DNA from: a virus
Strand: one strand, 5' to 3'
Length of the DNA stretch: 24,226 nt
IMG/VR virus record: IMGVR_UViG_3300008267_000972
Location: 1-24,226 of that record
Position 1 is the first letter of the stretch; every line of letters begins with the position of its first letter. Under the pieces are notes generated by a model. The model saw only the letters and a list, made by a program, of their open reading frames with translations, did no database searches and was not told the DNA's origin. This document shows, piece by piece, positions 6,282 through 21,401 of the stretch. Both the position numbers and the translations under genes were made by a program.

Positions 6282-6290
6282 CTATTTATT
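6282..6290 (-). promoter_or_regulatory. Possible T4-type late promoter box before gp8
   Basis: On the minus strand AATAAATAG fits the relaxed late-promoter motif N-ATAAATA-B known from T4-like cyanophages. It overlaps the gp7 stop and lies only 5 bases from the gp8 ATG, so transcripts would start at or inside gp8. It may be chance in AT-rich DNA. Confidence 0.2.
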
Positions 6291-7407
6291 CAACTTTTTG
6301 AAGGATTGTGGTGACTAAGTTTGCGGTAGTTATAAATGATCCAGAAACCAAAATGGTATTGGCATTAACAAATGTAACGGTTCTTATATCGTCAAATACC
6401 ACATTGATTGTTTGGTTATTTGCAGTAACATTGATAGTATTTTGTGTCATCAAACTGGTGGTGTTTGTAACATAGGTTACAGTTTCAGTATTTCCACTTG
6501 AAATAAAAATGGTATCACCATCTTGTACATCATTAATGAAGGTTGTTAAGTTACCTGTAACCACATTTGATGTGGACGCCACATTTACTGTACCATTAAC
6601 TCGTTTAGATAAGGTTGTAAGAATAACCATATCACCAACATTTACGGTATTTGCAAGATTAGGTGACGCTCCTGTAGCAACCATATTGTTCGAACCACTT
6701 CGAATGTTGAAGGTATTTGCAAGTTCGGTTTTAATAATGTTGATTGTGGTTAGTGATGTATTTGCTACATCCTCAGTATGAGAATTTATTCGGTTAACAA
6801 ATGTTTTGGTTCCTAATGGATGTACAATTTCATTCAATGATTTCTTAAATTTGTTGTAATCATTTTCCGTTTGAATTTGATATGAGAAATTGTGGTATTT
6901 TGTACCATCTTGTATTTTTTTGTCGGAACTAGGTTGGCCATCCGTATTCAAATAAATTCCAGGATAACGAATCAAACCATTTTCAAATCTGGCAGTTGCT
7001 TTTGCTTTGCCATCTCCATAATATAATACAGAATTAACATTTGCTTTTACGGCATTATCGGCCGATGAAATCTGTATTTGATTATTAAGAGTGCCTTTAT
7101 AATTAAAGATACGCAAAAGTCCACTTGAGGGAGTAAATTTCTCAACAAAAGCTGTAAATGTGGCATTACTACTTGAATTTCCTTGATAAATTATAGTATT
7201 GGAAACAAATAATTGTCCTGAAGTAACATTTGATACGGTCAAATCCGCATTTCTTAAAGATATTGTTGGAGCGCTAACATAGTCATAACCAAAACTAGAA
7301 ATTCTGAGAGATGAAATAGATCCAATTTTTGTTGTAAATAAACTAACATCAACACCTTCACCTAAAATTTCAGTTACAGAAAGAACTGCATTTGAACCAC
7401 TTGCTGT
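6286..7407 (-). CDS. 7: Baseplate wedge gp7, C-terminal part, in the -1 frame
   Basis: This frame is open from 7428 down to the stop at 6286 and continues the gp7 protein. Upstream of the first ATG (7242) it already encodes family-like sequence (FTASGSNAVLSVTEILGEGV, then SISSLRISSFGYDYVSAPTI), so 7242 is not a natural start and no ribosome-binding site precedes it. Further on come GIYLNTDGQPSSDKK, YHNFSYQIQT and EIVHPLGTKTFVNRIN, which I recognise as the conserved late part of gp7 in T4-like marine phages. Read through from 9068 with a -1 slip at 7407-7413 the whole product would be about 927 residues; T4 gp7 has 1,032. Without the slip or an indel correction this part is untranslated. Confidence 0.75.
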   Translation of the reverse strand, partial: TASGSNAVLSVTEILGEGVDVSLFTTKIGSISSLRISSFGYDYVSAPTISLRNADLTVSNVTSGQLFVSNTIIYQGNSSSNATFTAFVEKFTPSSGLLRIFNYKGTLNNQIQISSADNAVKANVNSVLYYGDGKAKATARFENGLIRYPGIYLNTDGQPSSDKKIQDGTKYHNFSYQIQTENDYNKFKKSLNEIVHPLGTKTFVNRINSHTEDVANTSLTTINIIKTELANTFNIRSGSNNMVATGASPNLANTVNVGDMVILTTLSKRVNGTVNVASTSNVVTGNLTTFINDVQDGDTIFISSGNTETVTYVTNTTSLMTQNTINVTANNQTINVVFDDIRTVTFVNANTILVSGSFITTANLVTTILQKVE

Positions 7408-9068
7408 AAATTTGTTTGTGAATAACCTTCACCACCTTTAATTAAAGAACCATTGTCATTAAATGTGACGGTTTTGATGCCATTATTTCCAGCATGAAGT
7501 TGCGTAATTGAGGCATTTGCACCATAGCCAGAAGATCCTGTGAACACCAAGTATTCACCAACATTGTAATTTGATCCACCATTAGTGATTCGAATTCTGC
7601 CTAAAGAACCAACTTCATTAATTGGCCTTCTAAATATTTTATAAACATCTACAGCACCAACATCATTTTCAAAATTATCACCTTCTAATGTGATTGTATT
7701 TGTTGTTACTGATTCTATATTCCTAATTTCTTCAAATTTATTAGGAGAATTTAAACGAACTGTATCACCAGCTTCAAAAGAAACGGTTAAATTTTGCGAA
7801 CTATCATTTATAGTTTTTGTTCCTTTTAATAAGGATGTAGATGAAATAATTAGTGAGTCAGCTATGTCTTCCAAATAATAACTATAAAATTTAGCTAAAG
7901 GTAAAGACTTATAACCACCACCAGATCCATCTGTTGTAACATAAGAAATTGGGAATACATTTAGTGTTTGGGTTGTAGTAATAAAACTAATTTGGCAATT
8001 TTCAATATTTGCGGTATTTGCTGCACCATCTAATGTTAAAGTATGAATGGTCTCAATTGCAACATTGCTTACATTGACTAGTCTTTGTGTATTTGTATCT
8101 ACAAGAGAAATAGTTGCTTTAGATTCTTGACCTAAAACCGAATCTTTAAAACCACCAACAAAATCAATTAATGAACTATTTACAATGTCTGGTGATCGGA
8201 ATCCAAACCCTCCATCATTAACAGCCACTTGAATGATCGATCCTTTTGTAACTGATCCTACAGTAGCAATAGCACCAACAGGTGTTTGATTGACTGGTGG
8301 AGTTGGATTTAGTCCTCCAACAATTGAAACCGGATCACCATCATAACCTATTGTTGGATCATATGCATTATAAAATAAACCTCTAAATTCAGGATTAATT
8401 TTAATTTCAGACAATGATCCAATCAAACGACCACTTACTGAAATTGGCGTTCCATTGGAAATATATGTGGCAGAAATTGTTTCTCCCGTTTGAAATAGTT
8501 TCTTAACATTTGAAACAAACATTTCAACATATTGAATACCTAATTGTCGATCAATTGATCTTGTGACACTTTCGACAATTGCTGTAGACTTTGATAAATC
8601 TCCAGTAACTTTTACGCCAACCAAATTAAAAATATTATTATCGCTGGTATCAACACGCAAAGACAATGGTAAAACCCATTTACCGTCCGAAGCAATTAAT
8701 ATTTCTTCTTTAGGATAATAAATTTCAATATCTTCATTATAAAAAATTCGAAATAGAAACTTAACGGATTGAGGAGTACCTTTTGCTCGGTAATATTGAT
8801 TAATAAATTTTAAAAGAGTTGCTTTGTCTGATATAATTTCTTCAGGAAAATATGGTGCAAGTTCTTGTTTAATTAATTCAATATATGTGTTTGTTGCTAA
8901 ATCCAAATCTTTCGATTCAGCAAAAGATTCAACAGCACTTAGAATTTGATTATTTGTTTTTGTCCATTCATAATACTTTTCTAAGAATGTGACAAATTTA
9001 GGGTAGTCTTCCCTTACAAATTCGGGTAGTTGTTTTTCAACTAATGAGGAAACTAATAGTTCGGACAT
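7374..9068 (-). CDS. 7: Baseplate wedge gp7, N-terminal part
   Basis: The 564-residue frame begins MSELLVSSLVEKQLPEFVRE and continues with YPKFVTFLEKYYEW and a KGTPQSVKFLFRIFYNEDIE segment, the N-terminal pattern of gp7 in T4-like cyanophages, where gp7 is a core wedge subunit. The middle holds glycine/tyrosine beta-modules (GGFGFRSPDIV, NGGSNYNVGEYLVFTG, GGEGYSQTN). The ATG at 9068 overlaps the gp6 stop by one base (TAATG), the operon's usual coupling. After GYSQTNL the zero frame runs only ten more codons (QQVVQMQFFL) to a stop at 7374, while recognisable gp7 sequence goes on in the -1 frame. The 564-residue form is therefore a truncated product, or the gene carries an indel. Confidence 0.8.
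   Translation of the reverse strand: MSELLVSSLVEKQLPEFVREDYPKFVTFLEKYYEWTKTNNQILSAVESFAESKDLDLATNTYIELIKQELAPYFPEEIISDKATLLKFINQYYRAKGTPQSVKFLFRIFYNEDIEIYYPKEEILIASDGKWVLPLSLRVDTSDNNIFNLVGVKVTGDLSKSTAIVESVTRSIDRQLGIQYVEMFVSNVKKLFQTGETISATYISNGTPISVSGRLIGSLSEIKINPEFRGLFYNAYDPTIGYDGDPVSIVGGLNPTPPVNQTPVGAIATVGSVTKGSIIQVAVNDGGFGFRSPDIVNSSLIDFVGGFKDSVLGQESKATISLVDTNTQRLVNVSNVAIETIHTLTLDGAANTANIENCQISFITTTQTLNVFPISYVTTDGSGGGYKSLPLAKFYSYYLEDIADSLIISSTSLLKGTKTINDSSQNLTVSFEAGDTVRLNSPNKFEEIRNIESVTTNTITLEGDNFENDVGAVDVYKIFRRPINEVGSLGRIRITNGGSNYNVGEYLVFTGSSGYGANASITQLHAGNNGIKTVTFNDNGSLIKGGEGYSQTNLQQVVQMQFFL
7407..7413 (-). other. Candidate -1 frameshift heptamer A AAT TTA in gp7
   Basis: In the gp7 zero frame the codons are ACA AAT TTA, giving the heptamer A AAT TTA, a perfect X XXY YYZ site (the type used by Rous sarcoma virus gag-pol). 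Slipping back one base enters exactly the frame that encodes the rest of gp7. A GAAGG stretch lies 12 bases upstream, similar to stimulatory Shine-Dalgarno elements in bacteria. Downstream I see only a weak 5-bp hairpin (CAGTT/AACTG) starting about 16 bases on. A missing A in the run would produce the same picture, so this is a candidate. Confidence 0.45.
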
Positions 9069-10057
9069 TATAGACTATTCATTTCTATAACAACACTTGT
9101 TGGATCTTCACTATCAAAGGCCAACATTTTGTTTTGCTGTGATGAAATAACAGAAATTTGTGGTCTAATATTAACAGATAATTCTCCAAAATCATTTGCA
9201 ACATCTGTTGGATTAAAGTTATTAATATAAATTTTTCCTGTATAATAATCAATTGATCCTATAACACCAAAATTGGCACCATAGTTCAAAATTACTTTTG
9301 TATTTTCATTTGTTACTTCATCTGGTTTATAGTAAACAATTCTTAATTGGCCATAACGACCTTCTAATACTGCCGAAGCGGCACCTAACTGTCCACCACC
9401 TCCAATAATTCTTACTGTAGCTGTAGTATAACCAACACCTGGATTTGTTACTGTAACTTTAGAAAGTTTAGAATTAACTATGGTCGCAATAGCAGTTGCT
9501 CCTTGTCCATCACCAATAATTTCAACTGTTGGTGTTGTCATATAATTAATGCCTGGATTTGTAACAGTAATTGATTCAACACCGGTAAAAGAAGATGGTA
9601 CTTCTTCTAAGAAAGATTGTCTTGAAATGCCTTCTTCATCCAACATTGTAAATTCTGGATTTGAGTATAGATTGTCTGATGTAGTTCCTTTTTGTAAAGG
9701 AACACCATAGTCTAAAATATAACTATTAGAATTGATTAAATCAGGTCTAAATTTTTTAGTTAAAAATAATTCCAATTCATTTGATTGAATTGCAGAATCT
9801 AAATTATCAATTCTAGAACTCAATATAGATGATTTAAAAATTGAATTAAAAGTATTTAAATTATCATTACAATAATTTTCAATTTCTGTTTGTATAGAAG
9901 ATTTTAATGTATTAGTATTACTAATTGTTTTTGTTGGATCATAATAAACTTTAGAAATTAATTTTAAAAAGTTATAATCAATATCAACAATTTCAGGTGT
10001 TACTGTAAGAATACTAATTGGCTTAATGATCTTTTCTTTAACAAATTCTTTTTCATC
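9068..10057 (-). CDS. 6: Baseplate wedge gp6, C-terminal part, frame-shifted
   Basis: The frame is open from 10078 to the stop at 9068. The first ATG is at 9823, but gp6-like sequence begins well upstream: KEFVKEKIIKPISILTVTPE, VDIDYNFLKLISKVYYDP, then SILSSRIDNLDSAI. These match the T4 gp6 region after its central domain (for example LAPITPSIISPNYLFIK). The later part contains two beta-modules (VTNPGINY, GDGQGATA, VTNPGVGY). It ends with a GKIYINNF segment and a KMLAFDSEDPTSVVIEMNSL tail typical of gp6. The 251-residue ATG-started product would lack the front of this region and has no Shine-Dalgarno, so I treat it as the detached C-terminal half of gp6. Confidence 0.75.
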   Translation of the reverse strand, partial: DEKEFVKEKIIKPISILTVTPEIVDIDYNFLKLISKVYYDPTKTISNTNTLKSSIQTEIENYCNDNLNTFNSIFKSSILSSRIDNLDSAIQSNELELFLTKKFRPDLINSNSYILDYGVPLQKGTTSDNLYSNPEFTMLDEEGISRQSFLEEVPSSFTGVESITVTNPGINYMTTPTVEIIGDGQGATAIATIVNSKLSKVTVTNPGVGYTTATVRIIGGGGQLGAASAVLEGRYGQLRIVYYKPDEVTNENTKVILNYGANFGVIGSIDYYTGKIYINNFNPTDVANDFGELSVNIRPQISVISSQQNKMLAFDSEDPTSVVIEMNSL

Positions 10058-10866
10058 GTGGAAGTCGCAATAAAACTGTTAGCTTTGTTTGCTAAGTCAC
10101 CATTCGTAATTAAGTATTTTACTGAAACAATGCTTCCATCAGGTATTTTTTTACCTAAAACATTATTACCAAAATAAATTTCATACTTGTTATTTTGGCC
10201 TTCTTGTATATAATATACTTCAGAGGTTGAATCTATATCTAAAGCATCAGTATTCAATGTATAAACTGTAGATGTTGAATTTGAAATTGATTCCCTTACA
10301 CTAACTTTAATTGTTGAGGTATCAATATTAATATCTGGTAAAGTAAAAATTTGTTTTGGATTGGAAGCTTCAACATGTGTAAAACTATATGTTGCTAATT
10401 GGCCTTCATAAATTTTCAAATTAGCAAATACAAAGTTATTACCAGTTTTTGAAACTGTCGTATCTTCTAATGTAATGAAATTGTAGGATTTACTATCAAT
10501 TAAATTTGAAAGGAAAATATAACCTTCAGGTAATGTTAATGAACCTGGCGTTGAAGATAAAGAATCAACTGAAAAATTAATTTTAGCTAAAGGTGCCGAT
10601 GCAGAACGTGGAGTATAACCAAATCGTTTAGCATGAGATACAACAGAGTTTCTTAATATTGCAGAATCTAAAAAAGATTCATTTGCCAACATATTCAAAT
10701 AATATGAATTGTAATGCGTATTATAGGCAAGAATATCCAAAAGAACATTTAAACCTGCTCCTTCGAAATCATAATCAGAAAACTCGGATTGTTGTTTTAA
10801 AAAACTTTTAAGATTAGATTTGAGTGTATCAAAATCTAAATCGGTTACATTTAAACGGTCTGCCAT
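10000..10866 (-). CDS. 6: Baseplate wedge gp6, N-terminal part, truncated
   Basis: The 288-residue frame starts MADRLNVTDLDFDTLKSNLK and contains SEFSDYDFEGAGLNVLLDIL and YNTHYNSYYLNMLANESFLD, the hallmark N-terminus of gp6 (T4: NEFLDYDFEGSRLNVLCDLL). gp6 subunits dimerise to join wedges around the hub. Family-like sequence holds to about residue 268 (YLITNGDLANKANSF, matching T4 STNGADANGAVGF). The frame then runs off into KKNLLKKRSL and stops at 10000. The ATG overlaps the gp25 stop (TAATG). The expected central region between the ADANG-type motif and the post-central segment is absent here, so the gene seems to have lost about 100-130 codons as well as its frame. Confidence 0.8.
   Translation of the reverse strand: MADRLNVTDLDFDTLKSNLKSFLKQQSEFSDYDFEGAGLNVLLDILAYNTHYNSYYLNMLANESFLDSAILRNSVVSHAKRFGYTPRSASAPLAKINFSVDSLSSTPGSLTLPEGYIFLSNLIDSKSYNFITLEDTTVSKTGNNFVFANLKIYEGQLATYSFTHVEASNPKQIFTLPDINIDTSTIKVSVRESISNSTSTVYTLNTDALDIDSTSEVYYIQEGQNNKYEIYFGNNVLGKKIPDGSIVSVKYLITNGDLANKANSFIATSTMKKNLLKKRSLSQLVFLQ
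10045..10072 (-). other. gp6 deletion/frameshift junction
   Basis: Here the zero frame of gp6 (SFIATSTM, ATG codon at 10056-10054) gives way to the -1 frame (DEKEFVKEK). The local sequence ATGAAAAAGAATTTG offers only G AAA AAG, not a perfect slippery heptamer. Relative to T4 gp6, about 100-130 residues are missing at this point. This is better explained by an internal deletion or assembly collapse than by recoding. Confidence 0.5.
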
Positions 10867-17562: not shown

Positions 17563-18141
17563 ATGGCCACACTAATAGACAGAATACAAAAATCTTTAGA
17601 TAAAGAAGGTTTAGCACCAAGAACCCGACAATCTAGAGCATGGTTACAAAATAAAATAAGCTCTCTAAATGCTTCACAACGATCCTTATTTAGAGATGTT
17701 GACCGAACAACTAGATCCGCTTTTGTTGGACATATGTACTTTTTCTACTATGATCCAAAGCATAAAGAAAAATTACCATATTATGATCGATTTCCTTTGG
17801 TGTTGCCGGTAGAACAATACAATGATGGATTTTTAGGTATTAATTTACACTACATTCACCCAAGAGAGAGAATGGTATTACTCGATAAATTAAGTGAAAC
17901 AGCAACAGATAAAAGTTTTGATATTAATACAAGATTAAGACTAAATTATCAGTATTTAAAAAGAGCAACAAAAGCATTTGAAGCAAAACCATGCATTAAA
18001 AGGTATTTGTTTACACATGTTAGATCCAGATTTGTTGAAGTTTTTGCTGATGAGTGGGACATAGCTGCCATGTTACCAATGGAAACATTTGTTGGTGCTG
18101 GAACAAACAAAGTATACGCTGATTCAAGGAACAAATTCTAA
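17563..18141 (+). CDS. T4-like virion protein, possibly DNA end protector gp2
   Basis: The 192-residue basic protein contains MYFFYYDPKHKEKLPYYDRF (about residues 58-77), then PLVLPVEQYNDGFLGINLHY and IHPRERMVLLDKL, a pattern I associate with a conserved protein of T4-like marine phages. In T4, gene 2 (DNA end protector, 274 residues) is next to gene 4, so gp2 is the best positional candidate; I cannot confirm homology from memory. C-terminal features include KPCIKRYLFTHVRSRFVEV and EWDIAAMLPME. No Shine-Dalgarno is visible; the upstream bases are a TATAAATA box. The stop overlaps the next ATG (TAATG). Confidence 0.55.
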   Translation: MATLIDRIQKSLDKEGLAPRTRQSRAWLQNKISSLNASQRSLFRDVDRTTRSAFVGHMYFFYYDPKHKEKLPYYDRFPLVLPVEQYNDGFLGINLHYIHPRERMVLLDKLSETATDKSFDINTRLRLNYQYLKRATKAFEAKPCIKRYLFTHVRSRFVEVFADEWDIAAMLPMETFVGAGTNKVYADSRNKF

Positions 18142-18914
18142 TGTCATTTGCACCAAATTTATTTCTAGCTAACATTAAAGCTAAAGATGGTTTAGCTAGA
18201 CCAAATCGTTTTCAAGTTGTATTACCTATTCCGCAATATATCAATAACTTTATTGGTAATTCGGTATTCGAACAGTTATTCAATTTACCAAATACCATAT
18301 TTACAAATGCTTCTGAAATTTTGGGTGGAGTATTTGGTAGTCAACCGCAAGATTCACAATCTAAAACAACTAACGCTTCTATATCAAGATATTTGGCGTT
18401 ACAATGTGAATCTGCTGAGTTACCAGGAAAAACTTTAAATACGGCTGATGTAAAAGTTTATGGTCCAACTTTTAAAGTTCCATATCAATCTCAATATACA
18501 GATACATCATTAACATTTTTATGTACAAATGAATTTTATGAGCGTAAACTTTTTGATCGTTGGTTGGAAGCTATTATGCCAACAGATACGAACAACCTTA
18601 GGTTTCCAAAAGATGAAAAAACCAGGTACATGACAAATATAAAAATTATTCAGTATGACGAATTTATCAAACAAATTTATGCGGTAGAATTAATTGATGC
18701 CTTTCCAATTGGAATAGCATCGCAACAATTAACTTGGACGGATGATAATGTACACAGATTAACTGTGCAGTTTGCATATCAGAAATATAGAACCATCTAT
18801 GACGGCACTTACGATTTAACTCAAGCTGCGGCCGCATTGTTTGGTTTACAAGGCGAAAAATTAATGAGTGGTTTAGGAAAAAATGTGGACCAAAAATTAG
18901 GGAGAATCTTTTAA
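18141..18914 (+). CDS. 54: Baseplate tail tube initiator, gp54-like (tail tube fold)
   Basis: The 257-residue protein has the tube-protein fold pattern shared by gp19, gp48 and gp54: LARPNRFQVVLPIPQ at residues 18-32, RYLALQCESAELPGKTLNTA at 83-102, VYGPTFKVPYQSQYTDTSLT, FLCTNEFYERKLFDRWLEAI, YDEFIKQIYAVELIDAFPIG and RLTVQFAYQKYRTIYDG. gp19-type tube subunits are about 160-200 residues; the longer N-terminal insert (40-80) and C-terminal tail fit gp54 (T4: 320), which initiates the tube on gp48. It is coupled to the upstream gene by TAATG and followed 15 bases later by gp26. Tail tube or a tube terminator is the main alternative. Confidence 0.72.
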   Translation: MSFAPNLFLANIKAKDGLARPNRFQVVLPIPQYINNFIGNSVFEQLFNLPNTIFTNASEILGGVFGSQPQDSQSKTTNASISRYLALQCESAELPGKTLNTADVKVYGPTFKVPYQSQYTDTSLTFLCTNEFYERKLFDRWLEAIMPTDTNNLRFPKDEKTRYMTNIKIIQYDEFIKQIYAVELIDAFPIGIASQQLTWTDDNVHRLTVQFAYQKYRTIYDGTYDLTQAAAALFGLQGEKLMSGLGKNVDQKLGRIF

Positions 18915-18929
18915 TTAAGTGAGGAAATT

Positions 18930-19661
18930 ATGTTACCAAAAATTGATGTACCAATATATGATCTGAAGTTGTTATCAACGGGAAAGAAAATACGATTTAG
19001 ACCCTTTACTGTTAAAGAAGAAAAATTGTTTTTGATGGCTGCGGAAGCAGGAGATTTAAAATCAATTACCGATACAGTTAAACAAGTTATTAATAATTGC
19101 GTTTTAGATGAACTTGATATTGATGAATTACCTTTGTTTGATATTGAACAGATTTTCTTACAACTCAGATCCAAATCAGTTGGTGAGTTAGTAAATTTAA
19201 AATATCGTTGCAATAATTTAATTAAAGACGAATCTGAAGAAGAAAAGAAATGTAATACAGTAGTGGAAATTGATGTTAATATTAATGACATAATTCCAGA
19301 ATTTGAAAAAACGGATAAAAACAAAATAGAAATTACCGAAAATTTGGGTGTAGTAATGAAGTACCCAAATTTCAAAGTGTTTGAATCTCTTGATGGTGAA
19401 AATGAAACAGAATCTATTTTAAATACTATTATAAGTTGTATTGATTATATTTACGATAAAGAAACTTTATATTATGCAAAAGATTCGACAAAAGAAGAAT
19501 TAAGTGAGTTTGTAGAATCATTACAGACCAAAGATTTACAGAAGTTTAAGGAGTTTTTTGATACTACTCCAAAGTTGCGTAAGAATATAAACTTTAAATG
19601 TCCTAAGTGTAGTTATGAAGAAAATGTTTTAGTTGAAGGAATCGAAAGTTTTTTCGTATAA
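18930..19661 (+). CDS. 26: Baseplate hub assembly protein gp26
   Basis: The 243-residue protein (T4 gp26: 208) has the gp26-family N-terminus: MLPKIDVPIYDLKLLSTGKK, IRFRPFTVKEEKLFLMAAEA. Cys pairs C94/C108 and C224/C227 (FKCPKCSYE) look like one split zinc-binding site. gp26 acts in hub assembly and, with gp51, is not or barely present in the finished virion. GAGGA eight bases upstream of the ATG is a good ribosome-binding site. The last codons before the stop are AGT TTT TTC GTA TAA, which contain a perfect -1 slippery heptamer leading into the gp51-like frame. In this respect it resembles the two-product tail chaperone genes of other phages (P2 E/E', lambda G/GT). Confidence 0.85.
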   Translation: MLPKIDVPIYDLKLLSTGKKIRFRPFTVKEEKLFLMAAEAGDLKSITDTVKQVINNCVLDELDIDELPLFDIEQIFLQLRSKSVGELVNLKYRCNNLIKDESEEEKKCNTVVEIDVNINDIIPEFEKTDKNKIEITENLGVVMKYPNFKVFESLDGENETESILNTIISCIDYIYDKETLYYAKDSTKEELSEFVESLQTKDLQKFKEFFDTTPKLRKNINFKCPKCSYEENVLVEGIESFFV

Positions 19662-19693
19662 TATTTGGTTATGATAATTTAGGTAATCATTTT
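19635..19693 (+). other. Candidate -1 programmed frameshift site, gp26 to gp51
   Basis: The heptamer T TTT TTC at 19649-19655 is in the gp26 zero frame (AGT TTT TTC GTA TAA), four bases before the stop begins. GAAGGA at 19635-19640 lies 8 bases upstream, like the stimulatory Shine-Dalgarno of E. coli dnaX. Downstream, ATGAT and ATCAT (19671-19690) can form a 5-bp stem that may extend across a small internal loop. The P2 E/E' site, T TTT TTG, is nearly identical. Confidence 0.65.
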
Positions 19694-19852
19694 CAGACGA
19701 ACTTTGCTTTAATGCAACATCACAAGTATAGTTTGACTGAATTGGAAAACATGATGCCGTGGGAAAAAAGCATCTATGTGGGTATGTTACTGAAGTATTT
19801 GGATGAAGAAAATGAAAAGATTAAATTGTTAAATGCTCAAAGAAAAGGTTAA
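19655..19852 (+). CDS. 51: gp51-like C-terminal extension of gp26 reached by -1 frameshift
   Basis: From 19655 a 65-codon frame, -1 relative to gp26, runs to the stop at 19852. It contains GYDNLGNHFQTNFALMQHHK and YSLTELENMMPWEKSIYVGM, and ends LLNAQRKG. The YSLTELExMxPWE pattern is that of the small hub-assembly protein (gp51 position) after gp26 in T4-like marine phages, and recalls the P-W-E/R motif in the frameshifted halves of tail chaperones. No ATG, GTG or TTG exists in frame before 19712, which lies inside the conserved part. An independent start at 19712 would give only 46 residues. A gp26-gp51 fusion of about 307 residues is the best reading. Whether a short standalone form is also made is open. 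Confidence 0.6.
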   Translation, partial: RIIFGYDNLGNHFQTNFALMQHHKYSLTELENMMPWEKSIYVGMLLKYLDEENEKIKLLNAQRKG

Positions 19853-19856
19853 TTAA

Positions 19857-21401
19857 ATGGCTGGAAGATTAGCTAGAATACTAGAACAAGAATATAAGAC
19901 CAAAGGTTTAGTCGGTGGTCTAGCTTCTGCTGGTGGAAAAAGACTAAAAGAAATGTTTGACATACGAAATGTCTTATTTTCTGGTGGTGGTATTGGTTCA
20001 CAAATTGGTAAAAAAATATTTGGTAAAGGATATTCGGCTACAGCTGATAAAGATAAAGCCGAAAGTATATCAAATCGTATTCAACCTCCACAACAAATTT
20101 TTTCGCAAGAAAGTATTGAAATACTATTATCAATTAAAAATGATACCAGGATTTCTGCAAAAAATTCGGTAGCTTTGCCTCAAATTGCTAGAGATATTAA
20201 TTTAGCAAAATTAAATATTATGAAGTTGGTAAGACTTCAAGGCGATACGGCTGAAATGAAAGCCGATATGTTTTTCAAAAGAGCGGGTGCTCGTGAAGAT
20301 GCCTATGAAAATCAATTTAAAAAAGGCAGTAAAACTTCTCCACAACCTGTTGCAAAAGGTGAATCTAAATCACTCATACAACAATTATTTACTGGTCTAT
20401 CAGGTTTAAGTAGTATTATAAGTGGTGCATTAAGTTCTTTAGGTGGAGTAATTAAAACAGCTCTTCTTGAATTAGGAGCATTACTTCTTGGTAAGAAATT
20501 ACTTGATTCAGTACCAACTAACGTACCTGATGTTCCAGATTCGGATAGAAAAGAAAATAAAAAAACCGATAAAGATAAACCTAAAAAAGCCGCACCTCCA
20601 CCAAAAAGAATGGCACCTCCAAAATTGGCCTTAGGTACGGCATTATTATTTTATTCTCCTGAGGTTGGTGCAGGATCCGATATAGTTCCCAATCAGAGTA
20701 CTTCACCATCTCCAATTGGTTTTGATTATAACAAATATAAAGAATTGGTAGCTCAACAAGAAAGTGGAAACAAATCCATTGATAATGGTAAAGGTTTTTT
20801 AGGAAAATATCAATTTGGTGCTCAAGCGTTAGAAACTTTTGGTTATTTGAAAAAAGGAACCAGTAAAGGAAATGATAATGCTGTTTATGATCCAAATAAT
20901 TGGACTGGCAAAGACGGCATGAAAAATAAAGATGACTTCTTGAATAATTTACAAATTCAAGAAGATTTGATGAAAAAATATACTCAAATGAACATGGTAG
21001 GTTTGAACAAAGCTGGTGTAATGAAAGGTGTAGAGGGTGATGGTGCAGCTATCGCATCTAGACTATATGCAGCTCATCATGGTGGTGTTGGTGGCGCCAA
21101 AGCTTTATTTTTGGAAGGCAAAAATACAAATGACAAATATTTACCTGGTGCAAGTGTAGGTAAAAGTGCTACGAATATGGCATCATTGTATTCTAGTGGG
21201 TCAGCGCCTAGTGGTGCAACGATTAATGAAGCTTCTGTTGCTATTGCATCACCTCCGGCATCAACCTCCACACCATCTACAACAACTCCAATCGTCAATG
21301 TAGATAATAGCAGAACTCAGATGGCAAGTGCTCCATCAGGTACACAAGTAAGTGCTTGGGATAATTTGATGTTTGAGAATATGATTACCCGAGTAATATG
21401 A
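19857..21401 (+). CDS. Tape-measure/hub-type tail protein with muramidase-like domain
   Basis: The 514-residue protein follows gp26/gp51, where T4 has hub and tape-measure genes (27, 28, 29). Residues 1-160 are basic and helical. Residues 172-215 form a hydrophobic Gly/Leu-rich stretch (LFTGLSGLSSIISGALSSLG) like the membrane-active parts of tape measures. Residues 225-255 are a Lys/Pro linker (KPKKAAPPPKRMAPPK). Residues 290-446 resemble a lytic transglycosylase/muramidase: QQESGNKS with candidate catalytic E302, GKYQFGAQALETFGY (316-330), NNWTGKDGM, and AAIASRLYAAHHGG with H407/H408. The C-terminus is Ser/Thr/Ala-rich. Since gp5 lacks its lysozyme, this is the likely tail-delivered cell-wall enzyme. 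AAGG lies 8 bases before the ATG. gp29 equivalence is inference. Confidence 0.65.
   Translation: MAGRLARILEQEYKTKGLVGGLASAGGKRLKEMFDIRNVLFSGGGIGSQIGKKIFGKGYSATADKDKAESISNRIQPPQQIFSQESIEILLSIKNDTRISAKNSVALPQIARDINLAKLNIMKLVRLQGDTAEMKADMFFKRAGAREDAYENQFKKGSKTSPQPVAKGESKSLIQQLFTGLSGLSSIISGALSSLGGVIKTALLELGALLLGKKLLDSVPTNVPDVPDSDRKENKKTDKDKPKKAAPPPKRMAPPKLALGTALLFYSPEVGAGSDIVPNQSTSPSPIGFDYNKYKELVAQQESGNKSIDNGKGFLGKYQFGAQALETFGYLKKGTSKGNDNAVYDPNNWTGKDGMKNKDDFLNNLQIQEDLMKKYTQMNMVGLNKAGVMKGVEGDGAAIASRLYAAHHGGVGGAKALFLEGKNTNDKYLPGASVGKSATNMASLYSSGSAPSGATINEASVAIASPPASTSTPSTTTPIVNVDNSRTQMASAPSGTQVSAWDNLMFENMITRVI

Follow-up and report, generated by a model that had tools for sequence, protein, structure and literature searches.

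A conserved slippery heptamer at the gp26/gp51 junction of T4-like phages points to a two-product tail assembly chaperone gene

The gp26/gp51 junction in the window phage

The window, the whole 24,226-nucleotide stretch of viral DNA analysed here, carries a gp26-like gene flanked by a tail-tube-like gene and a candidate tape-measure gene; an extension in the -1 frame runs past the end of gp26 (Table 1). A sequence-only reading of this DNA had described a T TTT TTC heptamer in the zero frame of gp26 with GTA TAA directly after it and a GAAGGA element 8 bases before it; all of these are present, the zero-frame end of the open reading frame (ORF) being AGT TTT TTC GTA TAA. The -1 frame is open from the heptamer up to a stop codon at 19850-19852, and its earliest ATG, GTG or TTG is the ATG at 19712, which lies within the conserved part and so bears out the earlier description of an open frame with no usable start ahead of that part. 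The predicted fusion comprises 240 + 67 = 307 residues, as had been estimated. No other in-phase TTTTTTC occurs in the 22 window ORFs that were examined (6182 codons), and by chance about 0.016 in-phase TTTTTTN would be expected within the final 10 codons of any one ORF.

Table 1. Features at and around the gp26/gp51 junction of the window phage.
Feature	Position	Strand	Support or remark
Tail-tube-like gene, directly upstream of gp26-like gene	18141..18914	+	phrog_45 tail tube, E 2.4e-38
gp26-like gene, short chaperone form (TAC-N), 243 aa	18930..19661	+	PF12322, E 5.4e-60; phrog_150, E 3.3e-65
GAAGGA, Shine-Dalgarno-like putative stimulator	19635..19640	+	8 nt upstream of heptamer
Slippery heptamer T TTT TTC	19649..19655	+	zero frame; in-phase T TTT TTN at the same place in relatives
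-1 frame extension, long-form C-terminal domain ('gp51' in cyanophage annotation)	19655..19852	+	phrog_634, E 3.1e-25; purifying selection
Zero-frame stop TAA	19659..19661	+	one codon past heptamer; spacing common to 327/329 loci
Candidate tape-measure gene, 514 aa, transglycosylase-like domain, directly downstream	19857..21401	+	phrog_27932 tail lysozyme, E 1.1e-20

The gp26 product leaves the phrog_150 profile at position 232 and the -1 peptide re-enters it at 231, continuing through 278; the -1 peptide also matches PHROG 634, 'baseplate hub assembly catalyst' (E 3e-25). The position of the downstream gene, the annotation of its equivalent in phage Cr30 as tail tape measure and weak matches in relatives suggest that it may encode the tape-measure protein; its own product returned no tape-measure match, and its counterparts in relatives match only weakly. 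Those counterparts range from about 514 to 1167 aa in other T4-like phages, as expected for a tape-measure protein, and the domain that the window product carries belongs to the hub lysozyme in other phages.

Elsewhere in the window, two baseplate wedge genes on the minus strand are split. A gp6-like gene (phrog_219) at 9068-10866 has its first part at 10000-10866 and the rest in another frame, the open frames overlapping near 10000 in what looks like a single-base contig indel and not biology; a second gene (phrog_17744/phrog_26741), at 6286-9068, is broken near 7374, probably also by an indel error.

Conservation of the site and of the -1 frame

We compared the gp26/gp51 junction, as the sequence-only reading had proposed, across 333 loci at which it is readable, drawn from viral contigs, named phages and annotated records and falling into 55 protein clusters at <70% identity. 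An in-phase T TTT TTN stands at the end of gp26 in 329/333 loci and 52/55 clusters, and in 327 of the 329 loci that have it the distance from heptamer to gp26 stop is exactly one codon. Its carriers include marine and freshwater contigs, cyanophages, KVP40, PX29, avDM6, Cr30, phiN3, phiM9 and a Desulfovibrio phage; the heptamer of RL38J1 was recognised by eye. The four loci without it are L072, whose ORF is broken, two Ackermannviridae and one Vibrio phage. Close relatives combining a gp51 start codon and ribosome-binding site with loss of the heptamer, a pattern that the earlier reading had named as telling against it, were looked for in this set; in the close relatives the heptamer was always present, save in L072. 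Other scans of viral contigs, alignment-wide and KVP40-like, yielded no usable result. In Pelagibacter phage Mosig, T TTT TTC is kept and the zero-frame stop lies eight codons further on; its public annotation begins gp51 at an internal ATG.

The conservation lies in the nucleotides as well as in the two phenylalanines that they encode. Conditional on the protein sequence and on local codon usage, the heptamers have a joint probability of about 10^-22; the second heptamer codon is TTC in 47/51, against an expected 31% (the TTC share of Phe codons there). Of the other FF pairs in these proteins only 2/59 are written TTTTTTC, and of those across every long ORF at these loci 5/188. In phiM9 and RL38J1 the second F is replaced by L, written TTG, which leaves a T TTT TTG that is still slippery; the heptamer is thus retained although the residue is not.

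To ask whether the -1 frame is translated where no conventional start is available, we compared pN/pS over the 15 codons past the gp26 stop in 78 loci without an ATG, GTG or TTG between the heptamer and +44. The -1 frame gave a ratio of 0.18 and the remaining frames 1.32 and 1.41, which indicates that the -1 frame is under purifying selection even without any usable start codon. Such codons are absent between the heptamer and +20 in 32 of the 52 heptamer clusters, and up to +75 in avDM6 and the Desulfovibrio phage. In S-RIM8, PX29 and avDM6 the -1 frame opens just 13 nt ahead of the last base of the gp26 stop, only at the heptamer, so translation must enter it there or later. Many cyanophages have an ATG at +2 as well, and KVP40, Cr30, phiN3 and phiM9 have a stop-start overlap (TAATG/TGATG); in phages with either arrangement a free C-terminal peptide could also be made. 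Across these genomes, comparison of sequences establishes conservation of the site, conservation of the frame relation and coding in the -1 frame without a start codon.

A purine-rich, Shine-Dalgarno-like element accompanies the heptamer, its best site lying 5-9 nt upstream in 30/32 clusters with a mean duplex energy of -6.2 against a background of -1.3. Synonymous shuffles gave -5.0 +/- 0.28, and 0/100 were as low as the observed value; by this measure the element is conserved beyond what amino-acid constraint demands. The small downstream hairpin that the sequence-only reading had suggested did not hold up: in the window phage the 45 nt concerned fold no better than shuffled sequence (z = -0.4), and a search of its clade found no conserved downstream hairpin. 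Strong hairpins (z down to -8) are predicted in P-SSM2, S-SSM7, S-PM2, S-ShM2 and Cr30, and we rejected the hairpin as a general stimulator because it is strong only in some cyanophages and Cr30 and missing in the window clade. The cyanophage hairpins (loci L001, L002, L003 and L188) sit at the same place just past the gp26 stop with differing sequences; that of S-PM2 is about 14 base pairs long, and the stem predicted in P-SSM2 and S-SSM7 encloses the ATG annotated as the gp51 start.

Proposed mechanism and alternative explanations

Together, heptamer conservation, codon choice and pN/pS strongly support the proposal of the sequence-only reading that gp26 and gp51 are joined by a programmed -1 frameshift, and we hold with high confidence that one gene here gives two proteins, a short and a long form. 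Most ribosomes would terminate at the TAA at 19659 and release gp26, the short chaperone (TAC-N). Some, delayed by contact between GAAGGA and the anti-Shine-Dalgarno sequence, would move back by one base at T TTT TTC, with both tRNA-Phe re-pairing with TTT TTT, and would then read the -1 frame to 19852, making the long form (TAC-NC) of 307 residues. On the analogy of lambda G/GT, the two forms would coat the tape-measure protein, probably the product of the gene at 19857, recruit tail-tube or hub parts and leave after tail assembly. The slipping and its frequency we infer, and the chaperone role is suggested by gene position and by this analogy.

The main alternative is that a small gp51 is translated separately, by stop-start reinitiation or from a non-standard start, and that the heptamer is a by-product of a conserved FF C-terminus. 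Cyanophage records do annotate gp51 from an ATG past the stop, the TAATG/TGATG overlaps of KVP40, Cr30, phiN3 and phiM9 would suit reinitiation, and Ackermannviridae relatives have no heptamer. A by-product of FF should not, however, show a codon choice so far from random, and separate initiation would have to operate in the 32 clusters that are startless to +20 and in avDM6 and the Desulfovibrio phage, startless up to +75. Even where the cyanophage +2 ATG exists, the conserved Shine-Dalgarno-like element ends >20 bases before it, too distant for ordinary initiation, and P-SSM2 and S-SSM7 are predicted to bury it in the stem of a hairpin. Furthermore, T4-type gp51 is a single protein that reads through the junction. 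We therefore consider separate translation improbable as the explanation of the arrangement.

Two other explanations would give the same fused product by changing the nucleic acid. Transcriptional slippage on the T6 run, producing mRNAs of altered length, would make a nearly identical protein, and a T run is a possible slippage site; yet T6 is short and selection should favour a longer run, whereas TTTTTTT is avoided (the 47/51 preference for TTC), the codon phase is conserved although only a ribosomal mechanism needs it, and the Shine-Dalgarno-like element acts on ribosomes. We regard this as very unlikely. Least probable of all is a sequencing or assembly indel in the T run of a gene that is truly one continuous ORF: two other genes on the same contig, both for baseplate wedge proteins, do look broken by single-base indels (at ~10.0 kb and 7.37 kb), but the same frame relation and heptamer recur in 329 loci, including the cultured, finished genomes of KVP40, P-SSM2 and S-PM2, and the zero-frame stop follows one codon past the heptamer in 327 of them, a comparison that already refutes the indel. 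Programmed -1 frameshifting thus remains our preferred reading; the arrangement is real and widespread among T4-like phages, and the window phage, judged from its sequence, almost certainly makes both forms.

T4 gp26 and gp51, and comparison with known systems

The sequence-only reading had extended the two-product gene to T4 itself, and here it needs correction. T4 gp26 and gp51 are the products of divergently transcribed neighbouring genes without a heptamer, an arrangement shared with Aes508. T4 gp26 has PF12322 alone; T4 gp51 (249 aa) has a complete PF12322 at residues 1-201 (E 7.7e-55) followed by a tail homologous to the -1 peptide, and is therefore already the full long form. Indeed, T4-type gp51 occurs naturally as a fusion within one ORF and stays colinear with IESFFRIIFGYDNLGNHFQTNFALMQHHKYSLTELENMMPWEKS over the junction. 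By sequence, then, the T4 pair is two paralogous genes, gp51 corresponding to the whole long form and gp26 to the short form. T4 and Aes508 have two PF12322 copies; each of 16 other phages searched, every complete heptamer phage among them, has one, and the window, a 24-kb record that is a fragment, gave one match. In an unrooted tree the gp26 clade (99/99) and the gp51 clade (100/100) are well defined, with the single-gene group on the other side not strongly supported (93/69). On this tree, which has no root, the T4 lineage would most simply have duplicated the gene and given up the frameshift. T4 gp51 is essential, being required for assembly and absent from the particle (review, PMC3004832).

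The heptamer is also missing from Ackermannviridae and two Vibrio phages (K369 and K475). In the Ackermannviridae Ds9CZ and MK-13 the -1 ORF has an overlapping ATG; in Det7, UPM 2146, Kevin and SenASZ3 an ATT or ATC stands in place of the relatives' ATG and the -1 ORF is conserved, with no ATG, GTG or TTG before +29 in Det7 and no other early start codon in SenASZ3, UPM 2146 and Kevin. Tentatively, and with no great confidence, one family might have taken three routes to a short/long pair: most groups would frameshift, the T4 group would rely on two paralogues, and Ackermannviridae, which lack the heptamer yet keep the -1 ORF, in several genera with no early ATG, GTG or TTG, would follow a third.

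Neither sequence nor fold searches matched the family to any solved chaperone fold. By sequence, we found no solved structure for gp51 and only chance-level matches for the gp26 profile. An AlphaFold2 model of T4-type gp51, the natural long form (pLDDT 87.9), had no match in the PDB with E below 0.25 (best VIA-align Z 3.6) and returned mainly its own family from a viral structure library.

The window locus combines a PF12322 short form with a C-terminal extension that shows homology to the last part of T4 gp51 and is colinear with it across the junction, and has a frameshift site with one PF12322 match, one of the two arrangements (the other being two PF12322 genes) by which T4-like tail assembly chaperones are recognised. 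Genes 26 and 51 are reportedly named in the abstract of the 2022 paper by Vladimirov, Gautam and Davidson. That paper, on T4-like tail assembly chaperone genes (Virology 2022;566:9-15; PMID 34826709), appears in the references of PMC10885494, which says of it that some T4-like phages have one short and one longer fused gene and do not frameshift; in PMC12846349 it is the source given for poly-T frameshift signals within the TAC-N genes of such phages. From what these sources relate, the frameshift arrangement was already proposed in 2022 for the same genes with the same short/long idea, so the novelty here is small and the window phage is a well-supported further, uncultured example. Judged by these sources, the present comparison may go beyond that study in scale, in its codon and Shine-Dalgarno statistics, in the F-to-L cases and in its reach to Cr30 and to rhizobium and Desulfovibrio phages. 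What follows in practice is a corrected annotation for a gene that most public T4-like phage records split in two.

Among other frameshifting systems, P2 E/E+E' shares the T-run heptamer, its site T TTT TTG being identical to the phiM9 and RL38J1 form. E. coli dnaX likewise has an upstream Shine-Dalgarno-like stimulator near a -1 heptamer; the window clade differs in having no conserved downstream hairpin. The slippery site of lambda G/GT is G GGA AAG, a different heptamer from the T TTT TTC of the window phage, and the searches made here brought up no sequence relation between lambda G/GT and the window chaperone. In both, a -1 frameshift of low frequency, predicted for the window phage, falls close to where a chaperone gene ends; that gene lies between tail-tube and tape-measure genes in lambda and its relatives (PMC5009743), and between a tail-tube-like gene and a candidate tape-measure gene in the window. 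That 2016 review describes G-T frameshifting as a widely conserved trait of long-tailed phages 'except T4'. T4 gp26 and gp51 both carry PF12322, like the window gene, but as two divergent paralogues without a heptamer; gp51 would be the chaperone's long form and gp26 its short one, a two-gene solution that explains the apparent exception of T4 to tail-chaperone frameshifting.
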